From: Micromonospora carbonacea
GTDB lineage: Bacteria > Actinomycetota > Actinomycetes > Mycobacteriales > Micromonosporaceae
Reading direction: 5' to 3'
Length of the DNA stretch: 64,000 nucleotides
Assembly: GCF_014205165.1 (NCBI RefSeq)
Contig: NZ_JACHMZ010000001.1
Span: 2,874,501 to 2,938,500 of the forward strand
Shown one piece after another: positions 7,458 to 25,567 of the stretch. The translations under genes were made by a program, and so were the position numbers. The notes under the pieces are model-generated. The model saw only the letters and a program-made list of their open reading frames with translations. It was not told the DNA's origin and made no database searches. How positions within the stretch are numbered: the stretch's first letter is position 1; every line of letters starts with the position of its first letter.

Positions 7458-7460
7458 GTG

Positions 7461-7476
7461 CCTGACCTTAGTCAGG
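7461..7476. promoter_or_regulatory. MarR-type operator
   Basis: CCTGAC-CTTA-GTCAGG is a perfect 6+6 inverted repeat just upstream of the MarR-GNAT start at 7457. It also lies about 80 bp upstream of the divergent IclR gene, so it may control both. Confidence 0.55.
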
Positions 7477-7553
7477 TAAATGTCGGGGGGTGCGACGGGG
7501 GTCGCCCGCCACCCCCGCACGGCGTGCCGCGGAGTGCTTCATAGGGTGGAGGG

Positions 7554-8312
7554 ATGCAACCCGTCGTGCGCGCGCTCCAGGTCCTCCAGGCGCTGTCCAG
7601 CCGGCCTGACGGAATGACCCTCCAGGAACTGCACCTGGCGCTCGACATCCCGCTGGGCAGCATGCACCGCATCCTTGCCGTGCTGCGCGAACAGCGATTC
7701 GTCAGCCGGTCGCCGATCGACCTGCGCTACTTCCTCGGTCCGGCCGTGCGCGATCTCACCGAGAGGAACGTGAGCGGGGCCGGCGGCATGCAGTCGCTCA
7801 CGACCGTCGTGCGCGAGTTGTCCCAGGCCACCGGCGAGACGGTCTTCCTGACCGAGTTGCACGGCAGCGAGGCCGTCTGCGTCTCGTTGGTGGAGGGCAC
7901 CTATCCGCTCCGGCTCTTCGTGCGCCTGGGGCAGGTCATGCCGCTGAACGCGGCCGCGGCGGCCCGGGTGCTCCTCGCCCACCTGCCGACCGCGGTCGCC
8001 GCGGAACTGCTCGGCGCGAGCGTGCTCGGCGAGTTCACGCCGGCGAGCCCGCACACCGCCGAGTCCGTCCTGGAGCGCCTGCCGGTCATCCGGGAGCGGG
8101 GCTACGACATCGCCGCCGACGAGCTCGACGAGGGCGTCTGGGCGGTCGCCGCCCCGGTCTTCACCTCGACCGGCCGGGCGACCGCCAGCGTGACGCTCGC
8201 CGGTTCGTCCGGTCGGTTCGCCACCGAGGCCGCCCGCAGCGCCGCCATCCGCAGCGTGACCGGGGCCGCCGCCCGAATGTCGGCGCACCTCGGCTGGACC
8301 CCCGGGGAGTAG
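7554..8312 (+). CDS. IclR-family transcriptional regulator
   Basis: 252 aa. The start is the ATG at 7554, with GGTGGAGGG just before it. Residues 1-65 are a winged helix-turn-helix (ALQVLQALSSRPDGMTLQEL, LPLGSMHRIL-type recognition helix, then REQRFV). Residues about 75-250 form the IclR effector domain with its usual blocks (ETVFLTELHGSEAVCVSLVE, then RLGQVMPLNAAAAARVLLA, and near the end the conserved GVWAVAAPVF). It reads towards the MOSC-ferredoxin operon, whose leader carries GGAA-N7-TTCC-N7-GGAA. The same motif stands before the PyrD-like operon and before the ribokinase operon. I infer that this protein is the regulator of all three; the effector is unknown. Confidence 0.85.
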   Translation: MQPVVRALQVLQALSSRPDGMTLQELHLALDIPLGSMHRILAVLREQRFVSRSPIDLRYFLGPAVRDLTERNVSGAGGMQSLTTVVRELSQATGETVFLTELHGSEAVCVSLVEGTYPLRLFVRLGQVMPLNAAAAARVLLAHLPTAVAAELLGASVLGEFTPASPHTAESVLERLPVIRERGYDIAADELDEGVWAVAAPVFTSTGRATASVTLAGSSGRFATEAARSAAIRSVTGAAARMSAHLGWTPGE

Positions 8313-8326
8313 CCCCGGTCCGTGCT

Positions 8327-8348
8327 GCCACCGCCTCCCGGCGGTGGC
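8327..8348 (+). terminator. Hairpin behind the IclR gene
   Basis: GCCACCGCC and GGCGGTGGC pair perfectly around a TCCC loop, 15 bp after the IclR stop. The rest of the 8313-8556 gap holds the operator at 8518-8546; I could not place a clear -35/-10 pair. Confidence 0.5.
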
Positions 8349-8517
8349 GCGCGCCCGTCCCTCGCCGCTCGTCCTGCCCCGCCTCCCGCGCCGCCGGCAC
8401 GCCGCACCGGCCCTGTTCGCCCGCCGGTGTCGGAGGACACAGCCCTGACCAGTGCCCACGAGGGGCGGGATCGGGGCGAAGGGGATTCATCGCCACTGGT
8501 GTACGCGCGCGATGCTG

Positions 8518-8546
8518 TGGAAACATGCCTTCCATGATACGGAAGG
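8518..8546. promoter_or_regulatory. Candidate IclR operator, three alternating half-sites
   Basis: TGGAA (8518), TTCCA (8530) and GGAAGG (8541) form GGAA-N7-TTCC-N7-GGAA. The last half-site overlaps the ribosome binding site of the MOSC gene. The same geometry is found at 17740-17765, and the first pair is found at 17002-17018. Exact spacing at three places near genes of one theme argues for a shared regulator. Confidence 0.65.
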
Positions 8547-8556
8547 AGTCGTGGTG

Positions 8557-9252
8557 ATGGAGAGTCCTGACCTGCCGGTGGAAGACCTCGCGGGACGCAT
8601 CGTGTGGCTCTGCGTGGGCGGCGCGTCCCTGCTGCGCAGCGGCGACCAGGAGATCCGCACGGGATACCTCAAGACCCCGGTCGACGAGGTCCGGGTGTCC
8701 CGTGCCGGGCTGCCCGGGGACGAGCAGGTCTACGAGACCCACGGCGGCCCGGACCGGGTGGTGCTGAGCTACTCCGTCGAGAACTACGCGTTCTGGCGCG
8801 ACACCCTCGGGCTCGACCTGCCGCAGTACGCGGCCCTCGGGGAGAACTTCACCACCACCGGGCTGACCGAGTTCGAGGTGCACGTGGGCGACGTCTTCGC
8901 CGTCGGCGACGCCGTCGTGCAGGCGGCCCAGCCCCGGTCCCCCTGTCACAAGGTGGCCGCCCGCCACCGCCGGCCCAGGTTCACCATCGAGGTCGCCCGC
9001 AGCCACCGGACGGGCATCCTCTACCGGGTGCTCCGCGAGGGTGTCGTCCGCGTCGGCGACACCATGCGGCTCGTCGCCCGCGAGCCGCACGGCTACTCGA
9101 TCGCCGACGCCAACCGCATCCTCATCGACCGCAGGGACCTCGCCGGCGCCCGTGCCCTGCTGCGGGTCGACTCGCTCGCCGAGGCGAAGAAGGCCGAACT
9201 GCGGGACCGGCTCGCCGCCGCCCCACCCACCGACCCCAAGGAGCTGTCATGA
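8557..9252 (+). CDS. MOSC-domain (YiiM-like) molybdenum-cofactor enzyme
   Basis: 231 aa. The start is the ATG at 8557, 8 nt after AAGGAG. The protein follows the YiiM type of MOSC protein: an N-terminal barrel, then YSVENYAFWRDTLGLDLP, LGENFTTTGLTEFEVHVGD, and the cofactor-binding Cys130 in PRSPCHK. MOSC enzymes such as YiiM, YcbX and mitochondrial mARC reduce N-hydroxylated bases and similar compounds and need an outside electron donor. Here the donor is probably encoded next door: the ferredoxin start overlaps this stop (ATGA) and a ferredoxin reductase follows. The substrate is not visible from sequence; an N-hydroxylated nucleobase would fit the neighbouring nucleobase genes. Confidence 0.82.
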   Translation: MESPDLPVEDLAGRIVWLCVGGASLLRSGDQEIRTGYLKTPVDEVRVSRAGLPGDEQVYETHGGPDRVVLSYSVENYAFWRDTLGLDLPQYAALGENFTTTGLTEFEVHVGDVFAVGDAVVQAAQPRSPCHKVAARHRRPRFTIEVARSHRTGILYRVLREGVVRVGDTMRLVAREPHGYSIADANRILIDRRDLAGARALLRVDSLAEAKKAELRDRLAAAPPTDPKELS

Positions 9253-9452
9253 TCCGCGTGCACGTCGACCTCGATCTCTGTCAGGGCTTCGCCAACTGCG
9301 TGATGGTCGCGCCGGACCTCGTCGACCTCGACGCGAACGGCAAGGCGGTGGCGCTGCGCGAGACCTTCCCCGACACCGACGAGGGCGAGCTGCGCGAGGC
9401 GGCCGAGTCCTGCCCGGCGGTCGCGATCCGACTCGAACGGAGCGCGCGGTGA
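9249..9452 (+). CDS. Small [3Fe-4S]-type ferredoxin
   Basis: 67 aa. The start ATG overlaps the MOSC stop by 4 bp. The cysteine pattern C-x5-C (LCQGFANC) followed by a distant CP (SCPAVAI) is that of the single-cluster ferredoxins that usually serve actinomycete cytochromes P450. No P450 gene is present in the window. The tight coupling to a MOSC protein upstream and a ferredoxin reductase downstream (GTGA overlap) suggests that it carries electrons from NAD(P)H to the MOSC enzyme. Confidence 0.85.
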   Translation: MIRVHVDLDLCQGFANCVMVAPDLVDLDANGKAVALRETFPDTDEGELREAAESCPAVAIRLERSAR

Positions 9453-10666
9453 CGGGCGGAACGGTCGTCGTCGGCGCCTCCCTGGCCGGGCTGCGGACCG
9501 CGCAGCACCTCCGGGCCCTCGGCTACGCCGAACCGGTGACGCTGATCGGCGCGGAGCCGCACCTGCCGTACGACCGGCCGCCGCTGTCCAAGCAGGTGCT
9601 GCTGGGGGAGTGGCCCGCGAGGCGCACGCACCTGGTAACCGAGGGACAACTCGCCGAGCTGCGGGTCGACGTCCGGCTCGGCGTGGCGGCCACGGGCCTG
9701 GACCGGGAGCGCAGGCTCGTCACGCTCGTCGACGGCGGCCTGGTCCCGTACGACTTCCTCGTCGTCGCGACCGGCTCGCGGCCCCGCGAGCTGCCCGCCC
9801 CGAACGGCGGCCCGCACGTGCACACGCTGCGCACCCTCGACGACGCCCGGCTGATCGCGGCGAAACTCGGCCCGGGACGCCGCCTGGTGGTGATCGGCGC
9901 CGGCTTCATCGGCTGCGAGGTCGCCTGCGCCGCCGTGGCCGGCGGCGCCGCCGTGACCCTGGTGTCCCGCGAGACCGCGCTGCTGCCGCAGTTCGGCCCG
10001 GACGTCTCCACCTACCTGGCCCGGCTGCACCGCGACGCCGGGGTCCGGCTGCTGCTCGGCGCGCACGTCCGCTCGGTCGGGCCGGCCGGCGGCGACGCCG
10101 CCTCGGTCGTGCTCGCCGACGGGACGGTCCTCGATGCGGACGTGGTCGTCGTCGGCATCGGCGGCGTCCCGAACGTCGAGTGGCTGGCCGGCAGCGGCCT
10201 CGCCGGGCCCGACGGCGTGCCGGTGTCGCCGCACGGGCAGACGGCCGACCCGGCGATCCTCGCCCTCGGCGACGTCGCGGCCTGGCCGGGGCCCGCCGGC
10301 CGGGGCCGCCGACGTTCGGAGCACTGGTCGCACGCCGTCGAACAGGCCAGGACCGTCGCCCGGGTCGTGGTCGAGGGGCCGTCCTTCGACCCCGGGACCT
10401 TCGTGCCGTACGCGTGGTCCGACCAGTACGGCCGCAAGCTCCAGACCGTCGGCGAGGTCCCGGCCCGGTCGGGCCGGATCGTGTCGGACGGCTGGCACAC
10501 CGCGGACCGTCGGCGGCACTGCCTCTACCTCGACGACCGCGGCGAGGTGGTGGGCGGGCTCTTCGTGGACGATCCCCGGGGCGCGGGGCAGCTGCGCCGG
10601 GCCCTGCAACGGGCCGGCGGGACACCCGACGCCGGCGTCCCCGGACGCCGGCCCGCCCCGGCCTGA
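9449..10666 (+). CDS. FAD-dependent ferredoxin reductase
   Basis: 405 aa. The start is the GTG at 9449, overlapping the ferredoxin stop. Two Rossmann motifs are clear: FAD (VVVGASLAGLRTAQHLRALG, about residues 5-24) and NAD(P)H (VVIGAGFIGCEVACAAVAGG, about 149-168). The second FAD motif ILALGDVA and the reductase segments PYDRPPLSK and YAWSDQYGRKLQ are present. It belongs to the putidaredoxin-reductase/rhodocoxin-reductase family and oxidises NAD(P)H to reduce the preceding ferredoxin. It is the last gene of the three-gene operon, which ends in the strong hairpin at 10683. Confidence 0.88.
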   Translation: MTGGTVVVGASLAGLRTAQHLRALGYAEPVTLIGAEPHLPYDRPPLSKQVLLGEWPARRTHLVTEGQLAELRVDVRLGVAATGLDRERRLVTLVDGGLVPYDFLVVATGSRPRELPAPNGGPHVHTLRTLDDARLIAAKLGPGRRLVVIGAGFIGCEVACAAVAGGAAVTLVSRETALLPQFGPDVSTYLARLHRDAGVRLLLGAHVRSVGPAGGDAASVVLADGTVLDADVVVVGIGGVPNVEWLAGSGLAGPDGVPVSPHGQTADPAILALGDVAAWPGPAGRGRRRSEHWSHAVEQARTVARVVVEGPSFDPGTFVPYAWSDQYGRKLQTVGEVPARSGRIVSDGWHTADRRRHCLYLDDRGEVVGGLFVDDPRGAGQLRRALQRAGGTPDAGVPGRRPAPA

Positions 10667-10682
10667 GCGCCCGCGACGCACG

Positions 10683-10735
10683 CCGGCCCGGGGCCGACCG
10701 GACTTGCAGCGCAAGCCCCGTCGGCCCCGGGCCGG
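10683..10735. terminator. Strong bidirectional terminator between convergent operons
   Basis: Perfect 16-bp arms (CCGGCCCGGGGCCGAC and its complement) flank a 21-nt loop that contains a small CTTGC/GCAAG stem. It separates the ferredoxin reductase stop (10666) from the nucleoside hydrolase stop (10742). Confidence 0.75.
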
Positions 10736-10741
10736 TGACCG

Positions 10742-11776
10742 CTACGCCCGGGATCCGGCCCGGTCCGACCAGCCGTGGTACGCCGCGAACATGGTCCGCA
10801 GGAGCCGGTCGTTGTCGACCGTCTTCACGATCCGCACGGGCTTGGCCCGGGAGATGTCGAGCCCGACGTGCAGCCGCAGGTTCTCCCGCGTCCAGGCGAC
10901 CGGGCGGCCCCGGGTGAGCGTCCCCCGGGTCTCGACGTCGACCATCATCTCCTCGACGGTGACGATGCCCGGATCGACGAGCAGCGCCACCGCGAGGGGA
11001 TCGTGCAGCAGGCAGCCGTCGATGTCGCGCCAGGCCGCGGCCAGGTCGATCCAGGGGCGGGTCGTCTGGACCACGTACCGGGCCAGCGCGGAGCGCTCCA
11101 CGTCCACGAGGTCGAGATCCTGATGGCGCAGCAGCGTCTGCGACGTCGCGTCCAGCGGGAGCAGCGTGATCGGGCACCCCGAGGTCAGCACGATCCGGGC
11201 CGCGTCCGGGTCGATGCCGAAGTTCAGCTCCTGGAGGAACCCGGGCACGTCGAAGGCGCCCCCCATGACGACGATCTCCCGGACGACCTCCGGCAACCCG
11301 GGGTCGAGTTGCAGGGCCTGCGCCACGTTCGTCAATGGACCGATCGCCACGATGGTGATCTCACCCGGGTGGGCGCGGACGTGCCGGACGATCTCCGCTG
11401 CGGCGTCGAACGCCGTGCCGGGGTCGTGGGGCGCCGGCGGCGGCACGGCGGACCACGCGGCGCGGACCGCGTCGCTGCGGGTGACCCGGTCCTGCCGGCT
11501 GCGCCAGGGGCCGCTCGGCTCCAGCAGCGCGGTGCCCGCGCCGGCGTGCACCGGGATGTCGAGCCCGACCAGGTCGACGAAGGTGCGGGCGACGGCGTAG
11601 CCCTGGTCCCGATGGGTGTTGCCGGACACGACGGTGATCATGTCGAGCTGGATGGCGTCGGAGGCGACGGCGAGCGCCAGGGCGAGCCCGTCGTCGATGT
11701 CCGCGCCCGGGACGCCGTTGCCCGGGTCGCAGTCGACGATGATCCGTCGCCGCGACGGCGGGCGGCCGGCGCTCAC
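10742..11776 (-). CDS. Inosine-uridine-type nucleoside hydrolase
   Basis: 344 aa. The start is the GTG at 11776, after GGGAGCGG, overlapping the permease stop by 4 bp. The calcium-binding start of the family is present in the longer form DCDPGNGVPGADIDDGLAL; further blocks are IGPLTNVAQAL, VVMGGAFDVPGF, ELNFGIDPDAARIVL and the catalytic HDPLAVALL near the C-terminus. These enzymes cleave ribonucleosides to base plus ribose. Its place as last gene of an operon with a ribokinase (first gene) and an importer (middle) gives a simple route: import of a nucleoside, hydrolysis, and phosphorylation of ribose. Base preference cannot be read from the sequence. Confidence 0.87.
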   Translation of the reverse strand: MSAGRPPSRRRIIVDCDPGNGVPGADIDDGLALALAVASDAIQLDMITVVSGNTHRDQGYAVARTFVDLVGLDIPVHAGAGTALLEPSGPWRSRQDRVTRSDAVRAAWSAVPPPAPHDPGTAFDAAAEIVRHVRAHPGEITIVAIGPLTNVAQALQLDPGLPEVVREIVVMGGAFDVPGFLQELNFGIDPDAARIVLTSGCPITLLPLDATSQTLLRHQDLDLVDVERSALARYVVQTTRPWIDLAAAWRDIDGCLLHDPLAVALLVDPGIVTVEEMMVDVETRGTLTRGRPVAWTRENLRLHVGLDISRAKPVRIVKTVDNDRLLRTMFAAYHGWSDRAGSRA

Positions 11777-12627
11777 TCCCGCTCCCCGGTGGAGGCGAGC
11801 GACGAGGCGAACTGCCGCTGCGCGAAGAGGAGCACGAGCAGCGGGACCACGGCGGTGAGGGTGGCGGCGGCGAACATCTGGCCGTAGTCGACGCCGGACT
11901 CCTGGGCGAAGTCGGCGATGGCCACGGGCGCGACCCGCACGGCCGGCGCGGGGGCGATGAGCAGCGGCCACAGGAACGACTGCCACTGGAAGACGAACAG
12001 GATCAGGCCGGCGCCGACCATCGACGCCCGCGACAGCGGCAGGTAGATCCGCAGGTAGATGCCGAACCAGGACAACCCGTCCATCCGGGCGGCCTCGCTG
12101 AGCGAGGTCGGGATGCCGAGGAAGAACTGCCGCAGCAGGAAGATGGCCAGGCCGTTGCCGATCGCCGGCAGGATCAGCCCGACGAGCGTGTTCTGCAGGT
12201 CGGCCTCGCGGAACGTCGACGCGAGCGGGATGGCGATCGCCTCGAACGGCACCAGGAAGCTGACGACCATGACGCCGAACAGCGCCGCGCGCCCGGGGAA
12301 CGGGATCATCGCCAGCGCGAACGCGGCCAGCGACGACACGGCCAGCCCGAGGGCCACGCTGACCGTGGTGACCAGCACCGAGTTCAGCAGCGCGAGGGTG
12401 AAGCTGCTCTCGAGCACCGCGCGGTAATTGTCCAGCGAGACCGTGGAGGGGACCACCGTCCGGACGGAGACGGGGGAGAGGTAGCGGAAGATCTCCTCGC
12501 CGGGGCGCAGCGAGGAGACGACGGCCCACAGCAGGGGCGCGACGGCCAGGGCGGCGACCGGCACGACGAGCCAGAGCGTGCGGCGTCCGGTGCGCCGCTC
12601 GTTGCGTCTTGCGACGATGTCGGCCAT
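11773..12627 (-). CDS. ABC transporter permease, MalG type
   Basis: 284 aa. The start is the ATG at 12627, only 2 bp after the stop of the partner permease. Six hydrophobic segments are visible, and the EAA loop (EAARMDGLSWFGIYLRIYLPLSR) lies at about residues 181-203. It belongs to the CUT1 sugar permeases and pairs with the MalF-type protein upstream and the binding protein before that. No ATPase is encoded in this operon; such importers in actinomycetes commonly use a shared ATPase (MsiK type) encoded elsewhere. The context points to a nucleoside or ribose-containing substrate. Confidence 0.85.
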   Translation of the reverse strand: MADIVARRNERRTGRRTLWLVVPVAALAVAPLLWAVVSSLRPGEEIFRYLSPVSVRTVVPSTVSLDNYRAVLESSFTLALLNSVLVTTVSVALGLAVSSLAAFALAMIPFPGRAALFGVMVVSFLVPFEAIAIPLASTFREADLQNTLVGLILPAIGNGLAIFLLRQFFLGIPTSLSEAARMDGLSWFGIYLRIYLPLSRASMVGAGLILFVFQWQSFLWPLLIAPAPAVRVAPVAIADFAQESGVDYGQMFAAATLTAVVPLLVLLFAQRQFASSLASTGERE

Positions 12628-12629
12628 GG

Positions 12630-13520
12630 CTAGTCCTTCCCGGGCAGCAGCCGGAACTGCGCGGCGACCACCACGATGACGATGCTGACGAGGACGACCG
12701 TCGCCGCGGCGGAACTGCCGGTGTCGGCCAGCGTGTAGGCGCGTTCGAAGATGAAGTTCATGATGAGGTTGGTCGATCCCTCTGGCCCGCCCTGGGTCAG
12801 GATCCGCACCGGGGCGAAGACCAGGAAGTTGGCGACCGTGTCGGCGACGAGGACGAACAGCAGGGGCCGGCGGATGCCGGGCAGGGTGATGTGGACGAAC
12901 TGCTTCCACCCGCCTGCGCCGTCGAGGTCCGACGCCTCGTACAGGCTGCGGGGGATCTCGTGGATGCCGGCGACCAGGAAGGTCATCCAGTAGCCGACCC
13001 CGACCCAGCTGCACAGGATGACGATCGACATCAGCGCGGTGTCCGGGCTCACCAGCCACGGCACGGCCGGGATGCCGAGGGTGCCGAGGAGGCCGTTGAG
13101 CGGGCCGTCCGGGCGGAACAGCACGCCCCAGACGATCGCCGACACGGTCTGCGGGATCGCGATGGGCAGCAGGATCAGCGTGCGCCAGAGGCCCACCAGC
13201 GGGATGTGCCGGGTGAGTAGGACGGCCAGGAACAACGCGACCGCGATCTGGAACGGGTTGATGACCAGCGAGAACAGCAGGGTGACCTTCAGCGAGCCGA
13301 GGAACGCGGGGTCGCCGAACAGGTAGGTGAAGTTCGTCAGCGAGAACTCGCCGAGCCGGTTCGTCACCGCCGAGGTGACCGCCTCGACGGACGGGACGAG
13401 TCGTAGGAAGACCAGGCCGGTCAGGGCCGGCAGGAGGAACAGTCCGGCGGTGCCGAGCGTCCGCAGGCGCGCGCGGTTGCGGCTGCGACCAGCTCGGGGG
13501 CGCGGGGGTGCTTGTGTCAC
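12630..13520 (-). CDS. ABC transporter permease, MalF type
   Basis: 296 aa. The start is the GTG at 13520. An Arg-rich cytoplasmic start is followed by six membrane segments. The EAA loop (YEASDLDGAGGWKQFVHITLP) is clear at about residues 204-224. It forms a heterodimer with the following MalG-type protein. It is separated from the binding-protein gene by a 67-bp gap that contains a perfect hairpin, so it is probably made at a lower level than the binding protein. Confidence 0.85.
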   Translation of the reverse strand: MTQAPPRPRAGRSRNRARLRTLGTAGLFLLPALTGLVFLRLVPSVEAVTSAVTNRLGEFSLTNFTYLFGDPAFLGSLKVTLLFSLVINPFQIAVALFLAVLLTRHIPLVGLWRTLILLPIAIPQTVSAIVWGVLFRPDGPLNGLLGTLGIPAVPWLVSPDTALMSIVILCSWVGVGYWMTFLVAGIHEIPRSLYEASDLDGAGGWKQFVHITLPGIRRPLLFVLVADTVANFLVFAPVRILTQGGPEGSTNLIMNFIFERAYTLADTGSSAAATVVLVSIVIVVVAAQFRLLPGKD

Positions 13521-13549
13521 GTTCGTGTCTTTCCGATCGGGGCCTGCCG

Positions 13550-13580
13550 GCCCCGGGCGGCGCGACCCGCCGCCCGGGGC
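13550..13580 (-). terminator. Intercistronic hairpin after the binding-protein gene
   Basis: Perfect 13-bp arms (GCCCCGGGCGGCG and complement) around a 5-nt loop lie between the binding-protein stop (13588) and the permease start (13520). Such stems often protect or partly terminate the upstream message, raising binding protein relative to permease. Confidence 0.6.
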
Positions 13581-13587
13581 GGGCGCG

Positions 13588-14877
13588 CTACTTGTACTGG
13601 GACAGCTGCCGGGCGAGGGCGTCCTGCGCGGTGGCGAGGATCTGCGCCGGGTCGCCGCCGTTGCGGATGTCGGCGAACGCCTTGTTCACGATCGTCTCGA
13701 AGTCCACGTACCCCACCGAGGACGGCCGCCGGACCGCGTGCTCGTCGGTGTCGGTGGTGAGCAGGGTGCCGTACTGGGTGGTCTGCCGGGGGGCGATGCC
13801 GTCGATGTAGTGGATGTACTTCGGGTACGCCTTCTGGTTGACCGGCGGCAGGTTGAACTTCGTCGATGCGGACGTCGCGCCGTCCGTGGACAGCGACAGG
13901 TAGCGGGCGAACTCCTGCGCCGCGGTCGGGTGCTCGCTGACGTTGCTGACCCCGACGGCCCACGAGTCGGTCGGCGTGACGACCTTCCCACCCGCGGCGT
14001 ACGGCAGCGGGGCCATGCCCCACTTGTCGGCGAGGCCGCTCTTCTGCAGGTCGGTGATGCGGGCCGGACCGGCGACGTAGAAGGCGACGGAGCCGTTCTT
14101 GAACAGGTCCGGCATCTGGGCGGACGCCAGGCCACGGGGGGACAGGCCGGAGGAGTAGAGCTTGCCGTACCAGTCGCCGAAGGCGCGCCACTGCGCGGTG
14201 TCGACGGCCGGGGTGAGGTTGCCGTCGCCGGCCAGCCCGGCGTCGCCGCCCATCGACATGATCACGGGCTGGAGGGCGTAGTAGGCGTCGACCTGCTCGA
14301 AGGCGAAGCCGTACTGGGCGCCGGCGGCCTTGGCCTTCGTGGCGGCCTCCAGGGTTTGGTCCCACGTCCAGCGGCTGGCGTTGTCCGGCCCGGGCTCGGC
14401 GATCCCGGCCTTGGCGAGCAGGGCCTTGTTGTAGAAGAGGAAGTTGTCGCTGGTCCACAGCGGATAGCCGTACTGCTTGCCGTCCCAGGTGACCGAGGAG
14501 ATGCCGCCCGCGGTCAGGCTCTCCTTCATGGCCGGGGCGTCGGCGGAGACGTCCCGCAGGAAGCCCTGGGCGGCGAGGCCGGGCAGGCGCGGCGGGTCCA
14601 CCGCGATGACGTCGATGGAGGTGTCCTTCGAGCCGAGCCGCGCCTGGGTCTGTGCCGCGATCTCGGCGAAGGGGATGATCTGCACCTCGACGTCGATGTT
14701 CGGGTGCTCCTCGTGGAAGGCCGCCACCGCCTCGTCGAAGACGCCCTTGTGCGGGGTGACGAACGTGATGGTGACGTCCGCGTTGGGATCGTCGTTGGCG
14801 GAGGAGCCGCAGGCGCTCAGCGCCAGGGCGGCGACCGCCAACGAAGCGCCGGCGATCCGGCCGACCTTCTTTGTCAT
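13588..14877 (-). CDS. Extracellular solute-binding lipoprotein (family 1)
   Basis: 429 aa from the ATG at 14877, which has AGAGGA 6 nt upstream. A lipoprotein signal (MTKKVGRIAGASLAVAALAL, then SAC-G with Cys at about 23) is followed by a family 1 sugar-binding fold: VTITFVTPHKGVFDEAVAAF, then WTSDNFLFYNKALLAKAG, and a tail with NKAFADIRNGGDP. It delivers substrate to the two permeases downstream. The reading frame is open upstream without a stop into the LacI gene (see 14878-15963), so a fused LacI-lipoprotein could also be made. The internal signal peptide and ribosome binding site argue for separate initiation here. Confidence 0.85.
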   Translation of the reverse strand: MTKKVGRIAGASLAVAALALSACGSSANDDPNADVTITFVTPHKGVFDEAVAAFHEEHPNIDVEVQIIPFAEIAAQTQARLGSKDTSIDVIAVDPPRLPGLAAQGFLRDVSADAPAMKESLTAGGISSVTWDGKQYGYPLWTSDNFLFYNKALLAKAGIAEPGPDNASRWTWDQTLEAATKAKAAGAQYGFAFEQVDAYYALQPVIMSMGGDAGLAGDGNLTPAVDTAQWRAFGDWYGKLYSSGLSPRGLASAQMPDLFKNGSVAFYVAGPARITDLQKSGLADKWGMAPLPYAAGGKVVTPTDSWAVGVSNVSEHPTAAQEFARYLSLSTDGATSASTKFNLPPVNQKAYPKYIHYIDGIAPRQTTQYGTLLTTDTDEHAVRRPSSVGYVDFETIVNKAFADIRNGGDPAQILATAQDALARQLSQYK

Positions 14878-15963: not shown

Positions 15964-16931
15964 CGCGGTGTCGCCTCGCGGCGCAGCACGTCGCCGGCCT
16001 GCTCCCACGTCGGGAAGGCCGAGGCTGCGCCCGGTCGGCTCACCGCCAGGGAGGCCGCCGCCAGGCCCCACCGGGCGGCCTCCGGCAGGGAGTGGCCCCT
16101 GGCGAGCGCGGCGGCCAGCGTCCCGGTGAAGCAGTCGCCGGCGCCCGTCGTGTCGGCGACCGTGGCGGCGAACGCCGCCAGGTGGTGAGCCGTCGGCCCG
16201 TCCGCGAGCACCGCGCCCTCGGCGCCGAGGGTGACGACGGCCGACCGGGGGCCGGCGGCGACGAGCCGGCGGGCCACCCCGAGCGCGTCGTCGACATCGT
16301 CGATGCGGGCCGGCCCGCCGTCGAGCAGTTCGAGCAGGTGGCCGGCCTCGTGCTCGTTGACCACGAGCGGATCGGCGCGGCGCAGCGTCCCGTGGTCGAC
16401 CGGGACGACCGGGGCCAGGTTCAGCACGAATCTCGTGCCGGCCGCGCCGGCCGAGTCGGCCGCCCACGCGACGACCGCGGGCGGCACCTCGCCCTGGACC
16501 ACCACGACGGCCGGCGGCGTCGCGTGGTCGCGGAGGTTCGCGTCGACCGTGGCCCGGTCGATTCGGTCCACCGGGCCGGGCTCGACGACGATCAGGTTCT
16601 CGCCGGTCGCCTCGACCACGACGGTGGCCCGCCCGGTGTGCCGGCCGGGGACGACGCCGACCTGCGTGACCGAGACGCCGTGGTTGGCCAGTGCGTCCCG
16701 GACGACCGTCGCGCTGGCGTCGTCGCCGACGACACCGAGCAGTTCGCAGGCAACGCCCATCCGGGCGATGGCCACCGCCTGGTTGGCTCCCTTGCCGCCG
16801 AGCCCGTCGCGGGCACGCCGGGAGATCACCGTCTCGCCCCGCCCTGGCAGTCGGGCGACGTCCAGCGAGCGGTCGTGGTGGATCGAGCCGATGACCAGGG
16901 CTTTTGGTGTCGCCCGCACCAAGTCGATCAT
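15960..16931 (-). CDS. rbsK: Ribokinase-type PfkB carbohydrate kinase
   Basis: 323 aa. The start is the ATG at 16931, with GGAAGGA 9 nt upstream. PfkB signatures are present: GGKGANQAVAIARMG near residue 45 and the ATP/catalytic block DTTGAGDCFTGTLAAA near residue 270. It phosphorylates ribose, or a close pentose, to the 5-phosphate in the cytoplasm. It is the first gene of the operon that ends in nucleoside hydrolase, which would release ribose. The promoter at 16966-16995 has an IclR-type half-site pair directly upstream. Confidence 0.85.
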   Translation of the reverse strand: MIDLVRATPKALVIGSIHHDRSLDVARLPGRGETVISRRARDGLGGKGANQAVAIARMGVACELLGVVGDDASATVVRDALANHGVSVTQVGVVPGRHTGRATVVVEATGENLIVVEPGPVDRIDRATVDANLRDHATPPAVVVVQGEVPPAVVAWAADSAGAAGTRFVLNLAPVVPVDHGTLRRADPLVVNEHEAGHLLELLDGGPARIDDVDDALGVARRLVAAGPRSAVVTLGAEGAVLADGPTAHHLAAFAATVADTTGAGDCFTGTLAAALARGHSLPEAARWGLAAASLAVSRPGAASAFPTWEQAGDVLRREATPR

Positions 16932-16965
16932 TAGGGCGTTCCTTCCGGCCGGCGTGAGGTTCCGT

Positions 16966-17018
16966 AATCTACGCGCGTTGAATCTGCGCCGTCAACGGTT
17001 GTGGAAGAGTGGTTTCCA
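16966..17018 (-). promoter_or_regulatory. Promoter of the ribokinase operon with upstream TGGAA-N7-TTCCA site
   Basis: On the minus strand TTGACG (16990-16995) and TAGATT (16966-16971) are 18 nt apart, a good vegetative promoter. TGGAA-N7-TTCCA (17002-17018), identical in form to 8518-8534, lies just upstream of the -35. A bound regulator there would be placed to activate rather than block. Confidence 0.6.
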
Positions 17019-17052
17019 AACTGGTTTCGGCTGGTGGCGCGCCGGTCGGGGG

Positions 17053-17646
17053 TCAGGCGTCGGGGAGCAGCCGGGTGGCCCTGCCGGCTTGCGGCCCGCC
17101 GCCCGGGCCGGTCGGCGCACCGGCGCACAGGGCGGTGACATCGCGCGCGGTGGCGACGGTGGCGACGAGTTCGTGACGCGGCTGCCGCAGGAACCCCTGT
17201 GCGGCCATCTGGTCGAGCTGCCGCAGGAACGCGTCGAAGAAGCCGTGCGCGTCGAGCACCGCGCACCTGGCCCGGGTGAGGCCGAGCCGTCGCAGGTTGA
17301 CCGCCTCGGTGATCTCCTCCAGTGTGCCGGGGCCGCCGGGCAGGGCGACGACGACGTCCGACAGCGCCAGGATGCGGGCCCGCCGGGCGGGACGCGAGGC
17401 GGTGACCTCCACCCGGGTCAGTCCCGGGTGCGGGGTCTCGTCGCCCGCGCCGGGAGGGGCCAGGACGCCGGTCACCCGGGCGTCGCGGGCCAGCGCCGTC
17501 CGGGCGGCAAGGCCCATGACGCCGTCCGCGCCGCCGCCGTAGACGAACTCGCAACCGTCGTCGGCGAGCGCGGAGACCAGCGACACCACGGCGGGGTGCA
17601 GCTCCTCGTGGCCGCTGGCCGCGCCGCCGTACAGACCGACCCGCAC
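17053..17646 (-). CDS. LOG-family nucleoside 5'-monophosphate phosphoribohydrolase
   Basis: 197 aa. The start is the GTG at 17646, with GGAGGACCC before it. The two signature motifs are present: YGGGADGVMG (about 42-51) and PGGPGTLEEI (about 105-114) with the catalytic Arg/Glu region. LOG proteins hydrolyse nucleoside 5'-monophosphates to free base and ribose 5-phosphate; they were first known for cytokinins, but bacterial ones act on AMP and other nucleotides. Many are mis-named lysine decarboxylase. It lies between the ribokinase and PyrD-like operons and its start faces the GGAA-N7-TTCC site at 17740, so it may belong to the same regulon. Confidence 0.85.
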   Translation of the reverse strand: MRVGLYGGAASGHEELHPAVVSLVSALADDGCEFVYGGGADGVMGLAARTALARDARVTGVLAPPGAGDETPHPGLTRVEVTASRPARRARILALSDVVVALPGGPGTLEEITEAVNLRRLGLTRARCAVLDAHGFFDAFLRQLDQMAAQGFLRQPRHELVATVATARDVTALCAGAPTGPGGGPQAGRATRLLPDA

Positions 17647-17695
17647 GGGTCCTCCAAGGGGGGGTGGGTGGCGGGGCCGCCGGCCGGCGGTGGGC

Positions 17696-17765
17696 TTGAC
17701 ACGCCGAACGGGGCGGCCGATACTCCGTAGCCTACTTGTGGAAGCAGGCTTTCCGCTAGGCGGAA
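17696..17765 (+). promoter_or_regulatory. Promoter and triple half-site operator of the PyrD-like operon
   Basis: TTGACA (17696-17701) is followed by GATACT (17719-17724), a 17-nt spacing. Downstream, GGAA (17740), TTCC (17751) and GGAA (17762) form GGAA-N7-TTCC-N7-GGAA, the same geometry as at 8519-8544. Its place after the transcription start fits repression. The region 17647-17797 also serves the divergent LOG gene. Confidence 0.65.
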
Positions 17766-17797
17766 AGTGTGGCGATTGTTCGACCGAGGGAGTGGGA

Positions 17798-18760
17798 GTG
17801 CAGCCATCCGCCCGGGAACCGGGTCCGTCCGACGATCTCCTCGGTGCCGCCGCCGGCGTCGATCTGTCCGTGCGCATCCGGGGCCTCGCCCTGACCTCCC
17901 CGGTGATGCCCGCCTCGGGCTGCTTCGGCCCGGAGCTGGGCCGGCTGCTCCCCATGCGGGAGCTCGCCGCCGCCGTCACCAAGACGGTCTTCCTCCAGCC
18001 CCGCGCCGGCAACCCGGCGCACCGGCTCACCGAGATCCCGGCCGGCGTCGTCAACAGCGTCGGCATCCCCAGCCGGGGCCCGCGCGGCTTCCTCACCCAC
18101 CAGTACCCCGGCTACCGGGCGCTGCCCGCCCCGACGATCATCAGCATCGGCGGCCACTCCCCGGCGGAGTACGAACAGGTCGCGGAGCAACTCGGCGGGG
18201 CCGGGGCCGGATACGAGATCAACGTCTCCTGCCCCAACCTCGACACCGACGGCCGGGACATCGGCTCCGATCCGGTCGCGCTCGCCGAGACCGTGGCCCG
18301 GGTGCGGGCGGTCACCGACAAGCCGATCATCGCGAAGCTGCCCGTGATGGTGGCCTCCATCGCCGAGTGCGCCCGCGCCGCCCAGGAGGCAGGCGCCGAC
18401 GCGGTCTGCGTGGCCAACTCGGTCCCGTCGCTTCCCCTCGAACCCGGCAGCCTGCGGCCGGCGCTCGGCAACCACGTGGGTGGCCTCACCGGCCCGCACA
18501 TCCGCCCCATCGTCCTGCGGCTCGTCTGGCTCGCGGCCAGGGCCGTCGACGTGCCCGTCATCGCCTGTGGCGGAATCGCCACCGCGGATCACGCCCTGGA
18601 GTACCTCTCCGTCGGCGCGTCGGCCGTGCAGGTCGGCACCGCCAACTTCAGCCGGCCCACCGCCATGGTCGACGTCGTCCGTGGCCTGCGCACCCGGTGC
18701 CGCGCGGCGGGCGTCACCACACTCCCCGCCCTGCTGCGCACCGATCTCACGCTCGCCTGA
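17798..18760 (+). CDS. PyrD-like dihydroorotate dehydrogenase (class 1B type), probably catabolic
   Basis: 320 aa. The start is the GTG at 17798, after GAGGGAGTGGGA. The FMN-barrel motifs of dihydroorotate dehydrogenase are all visible: VMPASGCFG near the start, NSVGIPSRGP, YEINVSCPN with the active-site Cys145 (class 1 type), and the phosphate-binding end VDVPVIACGGI and GASAVQVGTANF. A Cys base and a PyrK partner in the same operon mark class 1B, which uses NAD. Here the usual biosynthetic neighbours (pyrB, carAB, pyrF) are absent and a carbamoylase is present. The likely direction is therefore NADH-driven reduction of orotate to dihydroorotate for breakdown, as known for Clostridium oroticum. 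Biosynthetic use cannot be excluded. Confidence 0.8.
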   Translation: MQPSAREPGPSDDLLGAAAGVDLSVRIRGLALTSPVMPASGCFGPELGRLLPMRELAAAVTKTVFLQPRAGNPAHRLTEIPAGVVNSVGIPSRGPRGFLTHQYPGYRALPAPTIISIGGHSPAEYEQVAEQLGGAGAGYEINVSCPNLDTDGRDIGSDPVALAETVARVRAVTDKPIIAKLPVMVASIAECARAAQEAGADAVCVANSVPSLPLEPGSLRPALGNHVGGLTGPHIRPIVLRLVWLAARAVDVPVIACGGIATADHALEYLSVGASAVQVGTANFSRPTAMVDVVRGLRTRCRAAGVTTLPALLRTDLTLA

Positions 18761-18828
18761 CCCAGGGCGAGCCCGCCCAGCCCGCCGCGCCCGGCCGCCG
18801 CCGCGCGCCGACCAGGAACGAGAAGAGC

Positions 18829-19278
18829 ATGCCCGAACTCGCCGGCCTCTCCGCGCTCACCGCGCCGCTGGCCCGGACCGACGGCCCCGAACGGTGGTTC
18901 GACCTCGGCCACGACCCGCTGGCGTCCATCCGCCTCGGCGACGCGCTCGCCGCCGTCCTCTCCGCCCGCGCCGTGACCGCCGTCCTGCACTGGGAGGGCG
19001 AGGAGGAAGCGGTGCTCGCCCACGTCGTCGCGGCCGCGATGCGCACCCGCCGGGTCACCGTCGTGCAGGAACGCGGCCTCCTCTTCACCTCCGCCGACCT
19101 GCCCGACAGGTCGACCGTCGCCCTCGTCGCCACCCGGCTCACCAGCACCCGGGCCGTCACGCCGGTCGCCGCGATGATGCGCGAGCGGGGACACCGGCTC
19201 GACTGCGCGGTCACCCTGCAACCGCCCCGACTGCACCTGCCGGCCCCGCCGTCCGATCCGACGCCCGACGGTCACTAG
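18829..19278 (+). CDS. Small protein resembling a degenerate type I phosphoribosyltransferase (PyrE-like)
   Basis: 149 aa. The start is the ATG at 18829, preceded by AGGAACGAGAAGAG. Nothing in it is a clear catalytic motif. The order of elements recalls orotate phosphoribosyltransferase: RLGDALAAVLSARAVTAVL, then RRVTVVQERGLLFTSADLP, then the core strand DRSTVALVATRLTSTRAV and AAMMRERGHRLDCAVTL. In a working enzyme the core strand carries two acidic residues and TTG for PRPP binding; here they are replaced by VATRLTSTR. It could be an orotate- or nucleobase-binding helper rather than an enzyme. The homology is my reading by eye and is uncertain; it lies 24 bp before the carbamoylase gene. Confidence 0.55.
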   Translation: MPELAGLSALTAPLARTDGPERWFDLGHDPLASIRLGDALAAVLSARAVTAVLHWEGEEEAVLAHVVAAAMRTRRVTVVQERGLLFTSADLPDRSTVALVATRLTSTRAVTPVAAMMRERGHRLDCAVTLQPPRLHLPAPPSDPTPDGH

Positions 19279-19302
19279 CCCCCTCCGACAGCCAGGAGCA
19301 CC

Positions 19303-20562
19303 ATGTCCACCCTCGCCACCGTCCCCGCCCTGCAACCGGCCCGGCTGGAGGAGACGCTGCGGCGGTTCGCCGCCCTGTCCGAGCCCGGCGCGGGGGTCTC
19401 CCGCCTGGCCTACACGCGCCTCGAACGCCAGGCCCACGACCTCTTCGCGGCCCTGCTCGCCGACCTCGGCATCGCGTCGTACACCGACGCCGCCGGCAAC
19501 ACCATCGGCGAGCTGGCCCCCGACGCCGAGCCCCGCCCCGGCGCGATCGGCACCGGTTCCCACCTGGACAGCGTCCCGCACGGGGGCGCGTACGACGGGA
19601 CCGCCGGGGTCGTGGCCGCCCTCGCGGTGGCCGCCGCCGCGCGGGCCGGCCGCCCCCGGCACCGCCCGTGGCGCTTCGTCGCCTTCGCCGCCGAGGAAGG
19701 CGCCCGGTTCGGGCAGGCGTGCAATGGCAGCCGGATCGTCGCCGGCCTCACCGACGCCGCCGACCTGCACCGGCTCACCGACCGCACCGGCACGACGATG
19801 GCCGCCGCCATGACCGAGTGCGGCCTCGCGCCGCAGCGGGCCGCGACGGCGCGGTGGGAGCCCCGGGACTGGCGGGCCTTCGTGGAGCTGCACATCGAAC
19901 AGGGCACCGTGCTGGAGCGCCGGCGGGTGCCCATCGGGGTGGTCGACACCGTCTCCGGCTCGACCCGGCTGCGGGTCTGCCTGACCGGCGTGGCCGCGCA
20001 CACCGGCGGCACCCCGATGGACGACCGCCGCGACGCGCTCGCCGCCGCCGCGGAGTGCGTGCTCGACTGCGAACGGCTGGCCCTGGCCGCCGCCGACGTC
20101 AACACCCGGATCACCGTGGGCACCCTCACCGTCGAACCCGGCGCGATCACCGTCATCCCCGGCCGGGTGATGTTCACCGTCGACGTCCGCGAGACCGACT
20201 ACGACCGCCAACGCGCGGCGGCGCACGCCGTCGGCCAGCGGTGCCGCGCCGTCGCCGCCCGGCGCGGCGTCGACGTCGAGCTGGAGGAGCTGGCCGACAC
20301 CCCGCCGGTGACCCTGTCCCGCGAGGTGACGGCGGCGGCCCGCGCCGCGGCGACCGCGCTGGGGCTGCCCGCCGAGGTGCTGGCCAGCGGCGCGAGCCAC
20401 GACACCCAGCAGATCAGCCGGCTCATGCCGGCCGGGATCGTCTTCGTCCCCAGCCGCGGCGGGCTGTCCCACTCGCCCGAGGAGTTCAGCGCCGCCGACC
20501 AGGTCGCCGCCGGCGCGGCCGTGCTCCTGGAGACCATGTACCGGCTGGACGCGACGGCATGA
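19303..20562 (+). CDS. M20-family carbamoylase (hydantoinase/carbamoylase, AllC type)
   Basis: 419 aa. The start is the ATG at 19303. The binuclear metal set of M20 amidases is visible: GTGSHLDSVPHGG (H87), AYDGTAG (D98), the EEGARF pair, ELHIEQG and a C-terminal GLSHSPEEF His. The dimer-domain motif GVAAHTGGTPMDDRRDAL is that of carbamoylases. The family hydrolyses N-carbamoyl amino acids to amino acid, CO2 and ammonia. Placed with PyrD-, PyrK- and PyrC-like genes, the natural substrate is N-carbamoyl-L-aspartate (ureidosuccinate), giving aspartate. An allantoate amidohydrolase or beta-ureidopropionase role is the alternative. Confidence 0.85.
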   Translation: MSTLATVPALQPARLEETLRRFAALSEPGAGVSRLAYTRLERQAHDLFAALLADLGIASYTDAAGNTIGELAPDAEPRPGAIGTGSHLDSVPHGGAYDGTAGVVAALAVAAAARAGRPRHRPWRFVAFAAEEGARFGQACNGSRIVAGLTDAADLHRLTDRTGTTMAAAMTECGLAPQRAATARWEPRDWRAFVELHIEQGTVLERRRVPIGVVDTVSGSTRLRVCLTGVAAHTGGTPMDDRRDALAAAAECVLDCERLALAAADVNTRITVGTLTVEPGAITVIPGRVMFTVDVRETDYDRQRAAAHAVGQRCRAVAARRGVDVELEELADTPPVTLSREVTAAARAAATALGLPAEVLASGASHDTQQISRLMPAGIVFVPSRGGLSHSPEEFSAADQVAAGAAVLLETMYRLDATA

Positions 20563-21413
20563 CCACGGTGCCACCGGCGGCCGTCCTGGACGTGCTGCCC
20601 ACCCGCGATCGGCCGACGCCCGCCTGCGATCCGGCCGTCGTCGTCGACCACACGCCGCTCGCGCCGGCCATCCACCGGCTGGTGCTGCGCGCGCCCCGCG
20701 TCGCCGCTACCGCCCAGGCCGGCCAGTTCGTGATGCTCAGCGTGCCGCAGGCCACCGGGGAGCTGATCCAGCTGCCCCGGCCGATGGCCGTGCACCGCCG
20801 CCGGCCCGGCGGCGACATCGAGGTGGTCTACAACGTCCAGGGGCGGGGCACCGAGGCGCTGAGCCGGGTGCGGGCCGGTGACAGCCTCCCGGTCACCGGC
20901 CCCCTCGGCCGGGGCTTCGACCTCCCCGCCACCGCCGGCCCGCTCCTGGCGATCGGCCGGGGGATCGGGGTGTGTTCGTTCATGACCCTCGTCGAGGACG
21001 CCGCGGCCGCCGGCACGCCCAGCACCGTGGTCCTGAGCGCCCGCACCGACGACCGCGTCATCGGCCGCGCCGACTGCGCCGAGCTCGGGGCCGAGGCCAT
21101 CGCCGTGACCGACCTCGACGGCACCAGCGCCGTCGGGGCCCTCGGCCGCGCGCTGGCCGCCCGGTTCGCCGACCGGCCCCCCGCCCTGGTCGTGGTGTGC
21201 GGCTCCCAGCGGCTCACCGGACTCGCCGTGACCCTCGCGGGACGGTGGCGGGCGTCGCTGCAGGTGTCCGTCGAGGCGCACATGGCCTGCGGCCTCGGCT
21301 ACTGCCACGGCTGCGCCCTGCCCGGCCCAGCCGACCCGGAACGGGAGGGCCCCCTCGTCTGCTTCGACGGGCCCGTCTTCGCCGTGCAGGGGAACCCCGG
21401 TGCACCGGCTTGA
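20559..21413 (+). CDS. PyrK-like electron-transfer subunit (FAD, [2Fe-2S])
   Basis: 284 aa. The start ATG overlaps the carbamoylase stop (ATGA). It has the ferredoxin-reductase fold of PyrK: RPMAVHRR for FAD, an NAD-binding GRGIGVCSFMTL, and the C-terminal iron-sulfur cysteines C244-x4-C249-x2-C252-x15-C268. PyrK carries electrons between NAD(H) and the FMN of class 1B PyrD. That PyrD and PyrK are in one operon, with an amidohydrolase between them, strongly suggests a PyrD-PyrK complex made for this pathway. Confidence 0.83.
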   Translation: MTTVPPAAVLDVLPTRDRPTPACDPAVVVDHTPLAPAIHRLVLRAPRVAATAQAGQFVMLSVPQATGELIQLPRPMAVHRRRPGGDIEVVYNVQGRGTEALSRVRAGDSLPVTGPLGRGFDLPATAGPLLAIGRGIGVCSFMTLVEDAAAAGTPSTVVLSARTDDRVIGRADCAELGAEAIAVTDLDGTSAVGALGRALAARFADRPPALVVVCGSQRLTGLAVTLAGRWRASLQVSVEAHMACGLGYCHGCALPGPADPEREGPLVCFDGPVFAVQGNPGAPA

Positions 21414-22647
21414 GGCCGTCCGGCTGACGCCGGACGGCCCGCTGGTCGACGTCACCGTCGCCGACGGCGTGATCGGCGCGATCGAGCCCCGCGACGGCGG
21501 GCCGCCGGCCACCGAGCGGCTCGCCCTGCCCGCCCTGGTCGACCTGCACACCCACCTGCGCGACCCCGGCCACCCCGAGGCCGAGGACCTCCGCTCGGGT
21601 ACGGCCGCCGCGGCGGCGGGCGGGTACTCGGACGTGTTCGCCATGGCCAACACCGCACCGCCCACCGACCGCGTGTCCCGGGTCGCCGCGCTGCTGGCGC
21701 GGGTGCCACGGGGCACCACCCGCGTGCACCCGGTGGCCGCGGTGACGCGCGACCTCGCGGGCCGGCGGCTCGTGGACGTGCCGGCGCTCGTCGCGGCCGG
21801 GGTGCGGGTCTTCTCCGACGACGGCCGCTGCGTCACGGACCCGTCCCTCGTCCGCGCGATGCTGGAGGCTTCCCGGGACCTCGGCGTCGTCTTCGCCCAG
21901 CACGCCCAGGACCCGCACGCCGTCGGGGCCGGCGTCGTCAACGCCCGGGTGGCGGCCCGGGCCGGCGCAGCGCCGTGGCCGGCGGCAGGCGAGGAACGCG
22001 TCGTCGACCGGGACCTGTCGATCGCCGCCGACACCGGTGGACACCTGCACGTCTGCCACCTCTCCACCGCCGGCTCGGTCGAGCTGATCCGGCAGGCGAA
22101 ACGGTCGGGCGTCCGGGTCACCTGCGAGGTCACCCCGCACCACCTCGTCCTGGACGACGAGGCGGCGCTGCGCGCGGGCGGCCCGCTCAAGGTCAACCCG
22201 CCGCTGCGGGCCGCCGCCGACGTGCTGGCCCTGCGCGCCGCGCTCGCCGACGGCATCATCGACGTCGTCGCCACCGACCACGCGCCGCACCCGGCGGCGA
22301 CGAAGGCGCGCGGTTGGGCCGACTCGGCGTTCGGGCTGACGGGGCTGGAGACGGCCCTGCCCATCGTCGCCACGGTGCTGCGCGCACCCGACACCGGTCT
22401 GGTCGACTGGGCGCGGCTCACCGAGGTGCTCTCCGTCGTGCCGGCCCGCATCGGCGGCATCGCGCGCCGGACGGGCCGCTCCGTGCGGGTGGGGGAGCCG
22501 GCCGATCTCTGCGTGGTCGAGACGGGTGTCCCGCAGCGCATCCGCGTCGACCGGCACCGCAGCCGGTCCCGGAACAACCCGTTCGGCGGCTGGACCGTGC
22601 GCGAGCGGGTCGCCCGTACCCTCGTCGGCGGTCGCGTCGCGCACTGA
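21400..22647 (+). CDS. PyrC-like dihydroorotase (class I)
   Basis: 415 aa. The start is the GTG at 21400, inside the end of the PyrK-like gene (14-bp overlap), with AGGGGA before it. The metal site HTHLRDPG (H50, H52) includes Arg54, which in dihydroorotases holds the substrate carboxylate and is missing in hydantoinases. Further ligands and substrate residues are NTAPPTD, FSDDG, HAQD, HVCHLST and the catalytic VATDHAPH. It should interconvert dihydroorotate and N-carbamoyl-L-aspartate. In this operon hydrolysis to carbamoylaspartate, the substrate of the M20 enzyme, is the likely direction. It ends 29 bp from the convergent permease gene. Confidence 0.83.
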   Translation: MHRLEAVRLTPDGPLVDVTVADGVIGAIEPRDGGPPATERLALPALVDLHTHLRDPGHPEAEDLRSGTAAAAAGGYSDVFAMANTAPPTDRVSRVAALLARVPRGTTRVHPVAAVTRDLAGRRLVDVPALVAAGVRVFSDDGRCVTDPSLVRAMLEASRDLGVVFAQHAQDPHAVGAGVVNARVAARAGAAPWPAAGEERVVDRDLSIAADTGGHLHVCHLSTAGSVELIRQAKRSGVRVTCEVTPHHLVLDDEAALRAGGPLKVNPPLRAAADVLALRAALADGIIDVVATDHAPHPAATKARGWADSAFGLTGLETALPIVATVLRAPDTGLVDWARLTEVLSVVPARIGGIARRTGRSVRVGEPADLCVVETGVPQRIRVDRHRSRSRNNPFGGWTVRERVARTLVGGRVAH

Positions 22648-23930: not shown

Positions 23931-25465
<1,535 letters not shown>

Positions 25466-25554: not shown

Positions 25555-25567
25555 GACGGAAACCGCG

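Follow-up and report, generated by a model that had tools for sequence, protein, structure and literature searches.

Reductive breakdown of orotate belongs to classical biochemistry: the anaerobe Clostridium (Zymobacterium) oroticum ferments orotate via dihydroorotate and carbamoyl-aspartate to aspartate. The dihydroorotate dehydrogenase (DHOD) B of Lactococcus lactis (PyrDB-PyrK; structures 1ep1-1ep3), composed of a class 1B PyrD and a PyrK-type subunit and carrying an SCPN motif with conserved Lys and Asn residues, is biosynthetic. Investigating a window of 64,000 nucleotides (nt) from Micromonospora carbonacea (contig NZ_JACHMZ010000001.1, positions 2,874,501 to 2,938,500 of the forward strand; positions below are those of the window), we observed a second copy of such enzymes, which lies beside a carbamoylase gene, a gene for an IclR-family regulator and a three-box operator, GGAA-N7-TTCC-N7-GGAA. 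We consider it probable that the IclR protein represses, through this operator, an operon dedicated to the reductive catabolism of orotate. The chemistry would be the same as in C. oroticum, whereas the genes are those of an actinomycete and come with an IclR regulator and a new small protein; in contrast to the L. lactis enzyme, the reaction would run in reverse. Neither a gene cluster for reductive orotate breakdown nor a paper on this regulon was found in the open-licence literature, as judged by titles and the openings of abstracts; the available text of PMC4016543 concerns dehydrogenase families and a purine route.

Three-box operators of IclR proteins have been described in 32 orthologous groups (PMC8222616, available text), where PcaU, PobR and HmgR are placed in the group GTNCG-N5-6-CGNAC. 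The locus described here resembles theirs in that three boxes of alternating direction stand beside the regulated catabolic operon, with the IclR-family protein encoded nearby; it differs in its boxes, which are GGAA/TTCC with 6-7 nt between them. The available text of the same paper gives ATTCC-N7(5)-GGAAT for GenR of Corynebacterium glutamicum, an IclR protein likewise of actinobacterial origin, whose boxes and spacing are similar and which both activates and represses. GenR, however, controls 3-hydroxybenzoate/gentisate catabolism, and its likeness to our system rests on the boxes, not on a comparison of the proteins. Based on these three-box groups and on the GenR boxes, the operator represents a known type of element; the main text of that paper mentions neither orotate nor pyrimidine.

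The initial annotation of the window had reported the exact triple at 8519-8544 and at 17740-17765 (both on the + strand) and the first two half-sites at 17003-17017 (GGAA-N7-TTCC only, strand not assigned), and all three are present as described. The three GGAA-N7-TTCC matches in the window compare with a shuffle mean of 0.26, and none of 100 shuffles reached three. In the whole genome (7,528,541 bases) the full triple occurs exactly twice, both times in this cluster and 9.2 kb apart, and the reversed pattern once. With a T added in front (TGGAA-N7-TTCC), the two-box pattern is found 24 times on both strands versus 27 times for the reversed pattern, which is background, and the 17003 site taken alone is therefore weak evidence. 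The start region of the window's own iclR gene (7300-7620) holds no triple with spacing 7 then 6 or 7 at up to three mismatches. The regulator itself (7554-8312, + strand, 252 residues, the proposed repressor) is an IclR-family member by its HTH_IclR and IclR_C domains, both of which exceed the Pfam gathering score. The family assignments made previously for the IclR gene and for the MOSC, nucleoside and PyrD-like operons were likewise borne out by Pfam and NCBIfam.

To look beyond the window, 36 IclR proteins picked from 120 listed were aligned and used to scan GTDB species genomes, which yielded 45 loci; 44 were used for the counts below unless stated otherwise, L118 (24% archaeal match) being left out, with the reservation that loci from the same genus do not count as independent. 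Exact triples with spacing 7 then 6 or 7 occur 12 times in 10 of the 44 loci and once in the reversed sequence, while each of 47 other pairs of spacings gives 0-1. Within 400 nt upstream of the IclR or DHOD genes, GGAA-N6/7-TTCC is found 21 times (17 loci) and never in reverse; the control spacings give one site (4 or 5), none (8 or 9), none (10 or 11) and one (2 or 3). Widening the view to 1500 nt upstream raises the count to 33 sites in 24 loci, again with none in reverse, versus 3, 1, 1 and 2 sites for the spacings 4 or 5, 8 or 9, 10 or 11 and 2 or 3. Alternating boxes, fixed spacing and recurrence with a related regulator, the marks of a three-box IclR operator, are thus all present, and since related bacteria show the triple next to the same genes and regulator, it very probably serves real on/off control and is not a product of chance. 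In ten loci (L094-L103), which we take to be Pseudonocardiaceae, an exact site of spacing 6 precedes IclR in nine and DHOD in four; most of the other DHOD upstream regions there carry one-mismatch sites, many of the form AGTGGAAA-N4-TTTCCACT.

The motif on its own does not define the regulon. In 200 genomes of the family the bare triple gives 64 sites versus 60 for the reversed control (15 of the 60 in a single genome, G050, and 45 without it), because nearly all of these genomes lack this IclR, and we rejected the bare triple alone as a definition. The test proposed with the initial annotation, that is, whether the motif is random in related genomes, consequently has a divided outcome: near control across the family, clearly non-random wherever a relative of the IclR is present. 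In five of 13 other family regions picked and fetched (L061, L062, L063, L064, L068), exact triples have distant IclR genes (about 28% identical) as neighbours, at distances of up to about 3 kb, and other IclR groups of the family may also use the three-box layout.

The position of the operator suggests its mode of action. A promoter-like sequence of the DHOD operon (TTGACA-17-GATACT, 17696-17724, + strand) places the 17740 operator at +9..+34, if transcription is taken to start 7 nt past the second hexamer; another one before the pfkB operon (TTGACG-18-TAGATT, 16966-16995, - strand) places the 17003 site at -58..-44. These are the two promoter-like sites in 16850-17850, where the shuffle mean is 0.0, and the earlier placing of one site downstream and another upstream of a promoter is borne out for these promoter-like sequences. 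The geometry at 17740 recurs in the promoters of the relatives: at 23 of 90 oriented sites the first box is preceded by TTGAC at a distance of 43-48 nt (19 loci, seven genera; as a palindrome enters the count once per strand, the maximum for this 23 of 90 is nearer half). The remaining offsets between 6 and 150 give 15 occurrences in total, and the same arrangement is seen at 1 of 66 sites with control spacings and at 0 of 14 reversed ones. A protein bound just past the transcription start should block the promoter, which speaks for a repressor: without inducer the IclR protein would sit on the three alternating boxes and shut the operon off, and orotate or dihydroorotate may release it. The previous guess of a dual role, repressing and activating, can be kept in part, as an activator could sit at 17003, but the recurrence backs one role only.

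The enzymes encoded behind this operator suggest what is controlled. The DHOD (17798-18760, + strand) is of class 1B type and the proposed orotate reductase; it passes NCBIfam NF005574 (274.5 versus a cut-off of 269), stays below TIGR01037 (242 versus 270), aligns with the L. lactis structure 1ep1 at E 1.5e-53 and keeps the SCPN motif and the conserved Lys and Asn in alignments to solved structures. Its PyrK-like partner, an electron-transfer subunit for flavin adenine dinucleotide (FAD) and a 2Fe-2S cluster (20559-21413, + strand; Pfam/NCBIfam scans and structure alignment), passes PF10418, falls just below PF00970 and below all PyrK equivalog models, and has the clustered cysteines CGLGYCHGC; catalytic Cys and a PyrK subunit with FAD and 2Fe-2S cysteines, as expected of a class 1B DHOD, are therefore both found. 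The third enzyme is a type I dihydroorotase (21400-22647, + strand): it scores 342.9 versus 279 with TIGR00857 and 427 versus 538 with the equivalog model NF006836, resembles 3mpg (E 2e-71) and retains HxHLR, NT.P, DDG, NPPLR and TDHAPH. An M20 carbamoylase (19303-20562, + strand), assigned by Pfam/NCBIfam and structure alignment and proposed to be an N-carbamoyl-aspartate hydrolase, scores 359 versus 204 with TIGR01879, is related to 3n5f and keeps the metal motifs. The conserved residues of all four proteins contact substrate or metal. Class-2 PyrD and another PyrC are encoded about 5 kb apart elsewhere in the genome, so that the set described here is a second and probably non-biosynthetic copy. 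PyrD and the PyrK-like subunit would then run the dehydrogenase reaction backwards, from orotate and reduced nicotinamide adenine dinucleotide (NADH) to dihydroorotate, ring opening by the dihydroorotase would yield N-carbamoyl-L-aspartate, and from this the M20 enzyme would strip off the carbamoyl group, leaving aspartate, CO2 and ammonia.

The linkage of these genes to the regulator recurs as well. Beside the IclR relatives we found DHOD in 29, the M20 enzyme in 34 and PyrK in 30 of the 44 loci; all four core genes (DHOD, PyrK, a dihydroorotase-type and an M20-carbamoylase gene) are present in 26 and at least one of them in 38, counts which are lower bounds as several contigs are short. Together with the recurring sites this strongly supports a link between IclR, operator and orotate operon, as far as comparative sequence data can reach. 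Other recurring partners, in the 42 loci that were clustered, are an MFS symporter nearest to the aromatic-acid type (17), a gene resembling orotate phosphoribosyltransferase (OPRT; 12) and parts of an NMT1-type ABC transporter (10-11); several partner assignments (MFS symporter, OPRT-like, NMT1-type and uridine-phosphorylase-like) lie below the cut-offs of the models. In the Streptomyces loci L085, L086, L089 and L091 the NMT1-type ABC transporter and the DHOD operon run in one direction; ahead of these genes L086, L089 and L091 carry an exact GGAA-N7-TTCC that is itself preceded by TTGACT at 43-44 nt. The uridine-phosphorylase-like gene and IclR are divergent in L085, L086 and L089.

The other exact triple of the window precedes an operon for a YiiM-like MOSC protein, possibly of the N-hydroxylated base reductase type (8557-9252; Pfam MOSC, PDB YiiM 5yhh at E 8e-33), a small ferredoxin (9249-9452, Fer4_15) and a ferredoxin reductase (9464-10666; Pfam, below the cut-off of the NCBIfam HcaD/AndAa type), all on the + strand and the last two with approximate starts. 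YiiM and YcbX reduce an N-hydroxylated base (PMC3831636, available text). The protein encoded here has the MOSC fold of Escherichia coli YiiM, but it comes with its own ferredoxin, ferredoxin reductase and IclR-type operator, and its similarity is below the NCBI equivalog cut-off (6-hydroxyaminopurine reductase, NF008577: 111 versus 294). In Nonomuraea pusilla (L077), the only one of the 44 loci with the MOSC set, IclR is directly followed by the MOSC, ferredoxin and ferredoxin reductase genes, the DHOD operon is divergent and exact triples stand ahead of both transcription units. The set is a probable second target of the IclR protein through the 8519 site, perhaps serving the reduction of N-hydroxylated pyrimidines. 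The third GGAA of this operator (8541-8544) overlaps the Shine-Dalgarno sequence GGAAGGAG of the MOSC gene (ATG at 8557) and, being part of the ribosome-binding site, is not independent evidence.

Several observations weigh against the proposed regulon. No promoter-like sequence was found near the 8519 site. In 20 of the 44 loci the 1500 nt ahead of IclR or DHOD are free of exact two-box sites; some of these loci (L078, L079, L083, L104) have triples or one-mismatch triples nearby or elsewhere, the others having none that we found. When two-box sites in the relatives' loci are counted once each, around half have no TTGAC at 43-48 nt, and in L081 an exact site before DHOD lacks this geometry. 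In L094-L103 a third box is mostly not clear, so that with the spacing of 6 in this clade the third box is not universal, and in 6 of the 44 loci none of the four core genes is present in the available DNA. The M20 protein clearly belongs to the carbamoylase family, but its substrate is not readable from the sequence, and it is a putative N-carbamoyl-aspartate hydrolase (ureidosuccinase); with 408 bits it also exceeds the cut-off (399) of an NCBIfam subfamily model, NF006771, that bears the name "allantoate amidohydrolase". Finally, several IclR proteins share GGAA/TTCC boxes (PMC8222616, available text; compare the distant IclR genes near triples mentioned above), and another IclR protein could bind.

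These points bear on the alternatives to a different degree. The regulator and its operator may be correctly paired while the operon acts, through homologues of orotate enzymes, on another cyclic ureide such as 5-carboxymethylhydantoin or a substituted dihydropyrimidine. Besides the allantoate amidohydrolase score, the solved relatives of the M20 protein include allantoate, ureidoglycolate and carbamoyl-beta-alanine enzymes, the amidohydrolase of one clade scores best with an allantoinase model and the DHOD is, in structure alignments, also related to dihydropyrimidine dehydrogenase. The amidohydrolase of the window, however, passes the pyrC_multi dihydroorotase model with all its motifs kept, the DHOD passes NF005574, and PyrK-like and OPRT-like partners belong to families of orotate enzymes, which makes a different ureide unlikely. 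A more serious competitor, still doubtful in our opinion, is a single nucleoside-scavenging regulon in which all three operons import and break down a pyrimidine nucleoside or orotidine. It can point to the 17003 site, which has TTGTGGAAG...TTTCC in common with the 17740 site and lies upstream of promoter-like sequence, to a nucleoside hydrolase resembling pyrimidine-specific enzymes, and to a uridine-phosphorylase-like gene (below the model cut-off) present in 7 of the 42 clustered loci, in 6 of them directly upstream of IclR, which renders a nucleoside link plausible. Yet the 17003 site has two boxes only and is not placed at +9 as the recurring sites are, the genome holds two-box sites at background level, the module carries its own LacI regulator and was not found beside the other IclR relatives (only PfkB matches, 41%, in L079 and L083), and the kinase was found at E<=1e-75 in 1 of 160 genomes of the genus, its own. 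An operator of the recurring kind and position was thus not found before the pfkB operon, nor its linkage elsewhere. The idea that one IclR protein governs the whole region is sustained insofar as the pairing with its operator is conserved with relatives across genera and the orotate theme holds; the nucleoside, ribokinase and LOG arm fits it weakly, possibly as a set that IclR activates through 17003 in this strain, and orotidine as a substrate finds no support.

It is improbable that the sites are bound by another regulator, another IclR paralogue or a LacI protein, with the nearness of this IclR being incidental. The use of such boxes by several IclR groups and the distant IclR genes near triples would allow it, but in the 24 loci mentioned the sites go with this IclR and its operon (33 sites versus 1-3 at other spacings and none in reverse), and the sole other family genome of 200 that encodes this IclR (E<=1e-45; G044, a Dactylosporangium locus, also L111, with an M20 gene 58% identical) has an exact triple less than 200 bp from the gene. 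We regard it as extremely improbable that the GGAA arrays arose by chance or are parts of ribosome-binding sites: the third box at 8519 does coincide with a Shine-Dalgarno sequence, but the shuffle, reversed-pattern and other-spacing controls of window, genome and 44 loci all speak against it. Repression of a reductive orotate operon by the IclR protein stays our preferred explanation.

As a correction to the initial annotation, the DHOD operon also holds a gene for protein X (18829-19278, + strand, 149 residues), which has no Pfam or NCBIfam match and whose relatives recur in these operons. A sensitive search returned X-like reading frames in 32 of the 45 loci in the first round, and a second round added three real-looking ones (L083, L109, L111) and several doubtful ones; Pfam at E<=0.1 gives scattered matches on the 32 X rows, the best being DUF4908 (2 rows, 2.2e-4). 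OPRT-like reading frames were found by the same kind of search in 22 of the 45 loci, which also points to orotate, and none was found in the window's own operon. Of 17 OPRT-like proteins inspected by eye (L107:9850-10437, L074:1620-2231 and 15 more), the acidic pair of the phosphoribosyl pyrophosphate loop is kept in 7 and lost from 10, which gives the impression of proteins turning non-catalytic. For the idea that X itself is an OPRT, an hhalign comparison of 32 X rows with 17 OPRT-like rows is in register but weak (E 0.0015, probability 17%). A far-reaching view, which we hold to be rather unlikely as a whole, would be that of an aerobic route of orotate breakdown, undescribed at the genetic level, under an orotate-responsive IclR, with X and the OPRT-like proteins as repurposed non-catalytic phosphoribosyltransferases that bind orotate as sensor or scaffold, and with a molybdenum-dependent MOSC-ferredoxin-reductase branch that admits N-hydroxylated pyrimidines.

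In M. carbonacea the cluster is an accessory island with close copies in few strains. At E<=1e-45 the IclR is found in 2 of 200 family genomes and the DHOD in 3 of 160 genomes of the genus, at E<=1e-60 the DHOD in 1 of 200 family genomes and at E<=1e-15 protein X in 1 of 354, own genome included in each case; the proteins of Dactylosporangium sp. NPDC000244 and Micromonospora sp. NPDC048830 are 83% and 81% (IclR) and 72% and 69% (X) identical, respectively, with the IclR and X proteins coming from contigs of equal length. As the island is rare among near relatives, the 17003 site cannot be footprinted from them. Orotate is a central metabolite, and with a defined operon, its regulator and an operator at a precise position all recurring across several actinomycete genera, regulator, ligand and pathway can be tested directly. 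Some second pyrD, pyrC and pyrE copies in such genomes may need to be re-read as catabolic, and the two-box sites of spacing 6 and three-box sites of spacing 7 would offer a natural series for studying the use of two or three boxes by IclR proteins.

Between the MOSC and DHOD operons lies the nucleoside module, all of it on the - strand. It comprises the nucleoside hydrolase with pyrimidine-preferring relatives (10742-11743, start approximate; Pfam, NCBIfam and structure alignment), two ABC permeases with a solute-binding protein (11773-14860) and the LacI-family regulator (14967-15950), both with approximate boundaries, and the ribokinase-like PfkB-family sugar kinase (15960-16931), the last three assigned by Pfam. 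A LOG-type phosphoribohydrolase (17053-17646, - strand; Pfam, below the NCBIfam cut-offs; GTG start with GGAGGA upstream) is divergent from the DHOD operon. On its other side this operon is adjoined by a ribose-type ABC transporter on the opposite strand (permease, ATPase and binding protein, 22677-26710), which is without the motif. The N-terminal aspartate motif of the nucleoside hydrolase (DCDPGNGVPGADIDDG) contains an insertion of 7 residues relative to the two solved enzymes used in the alignment.

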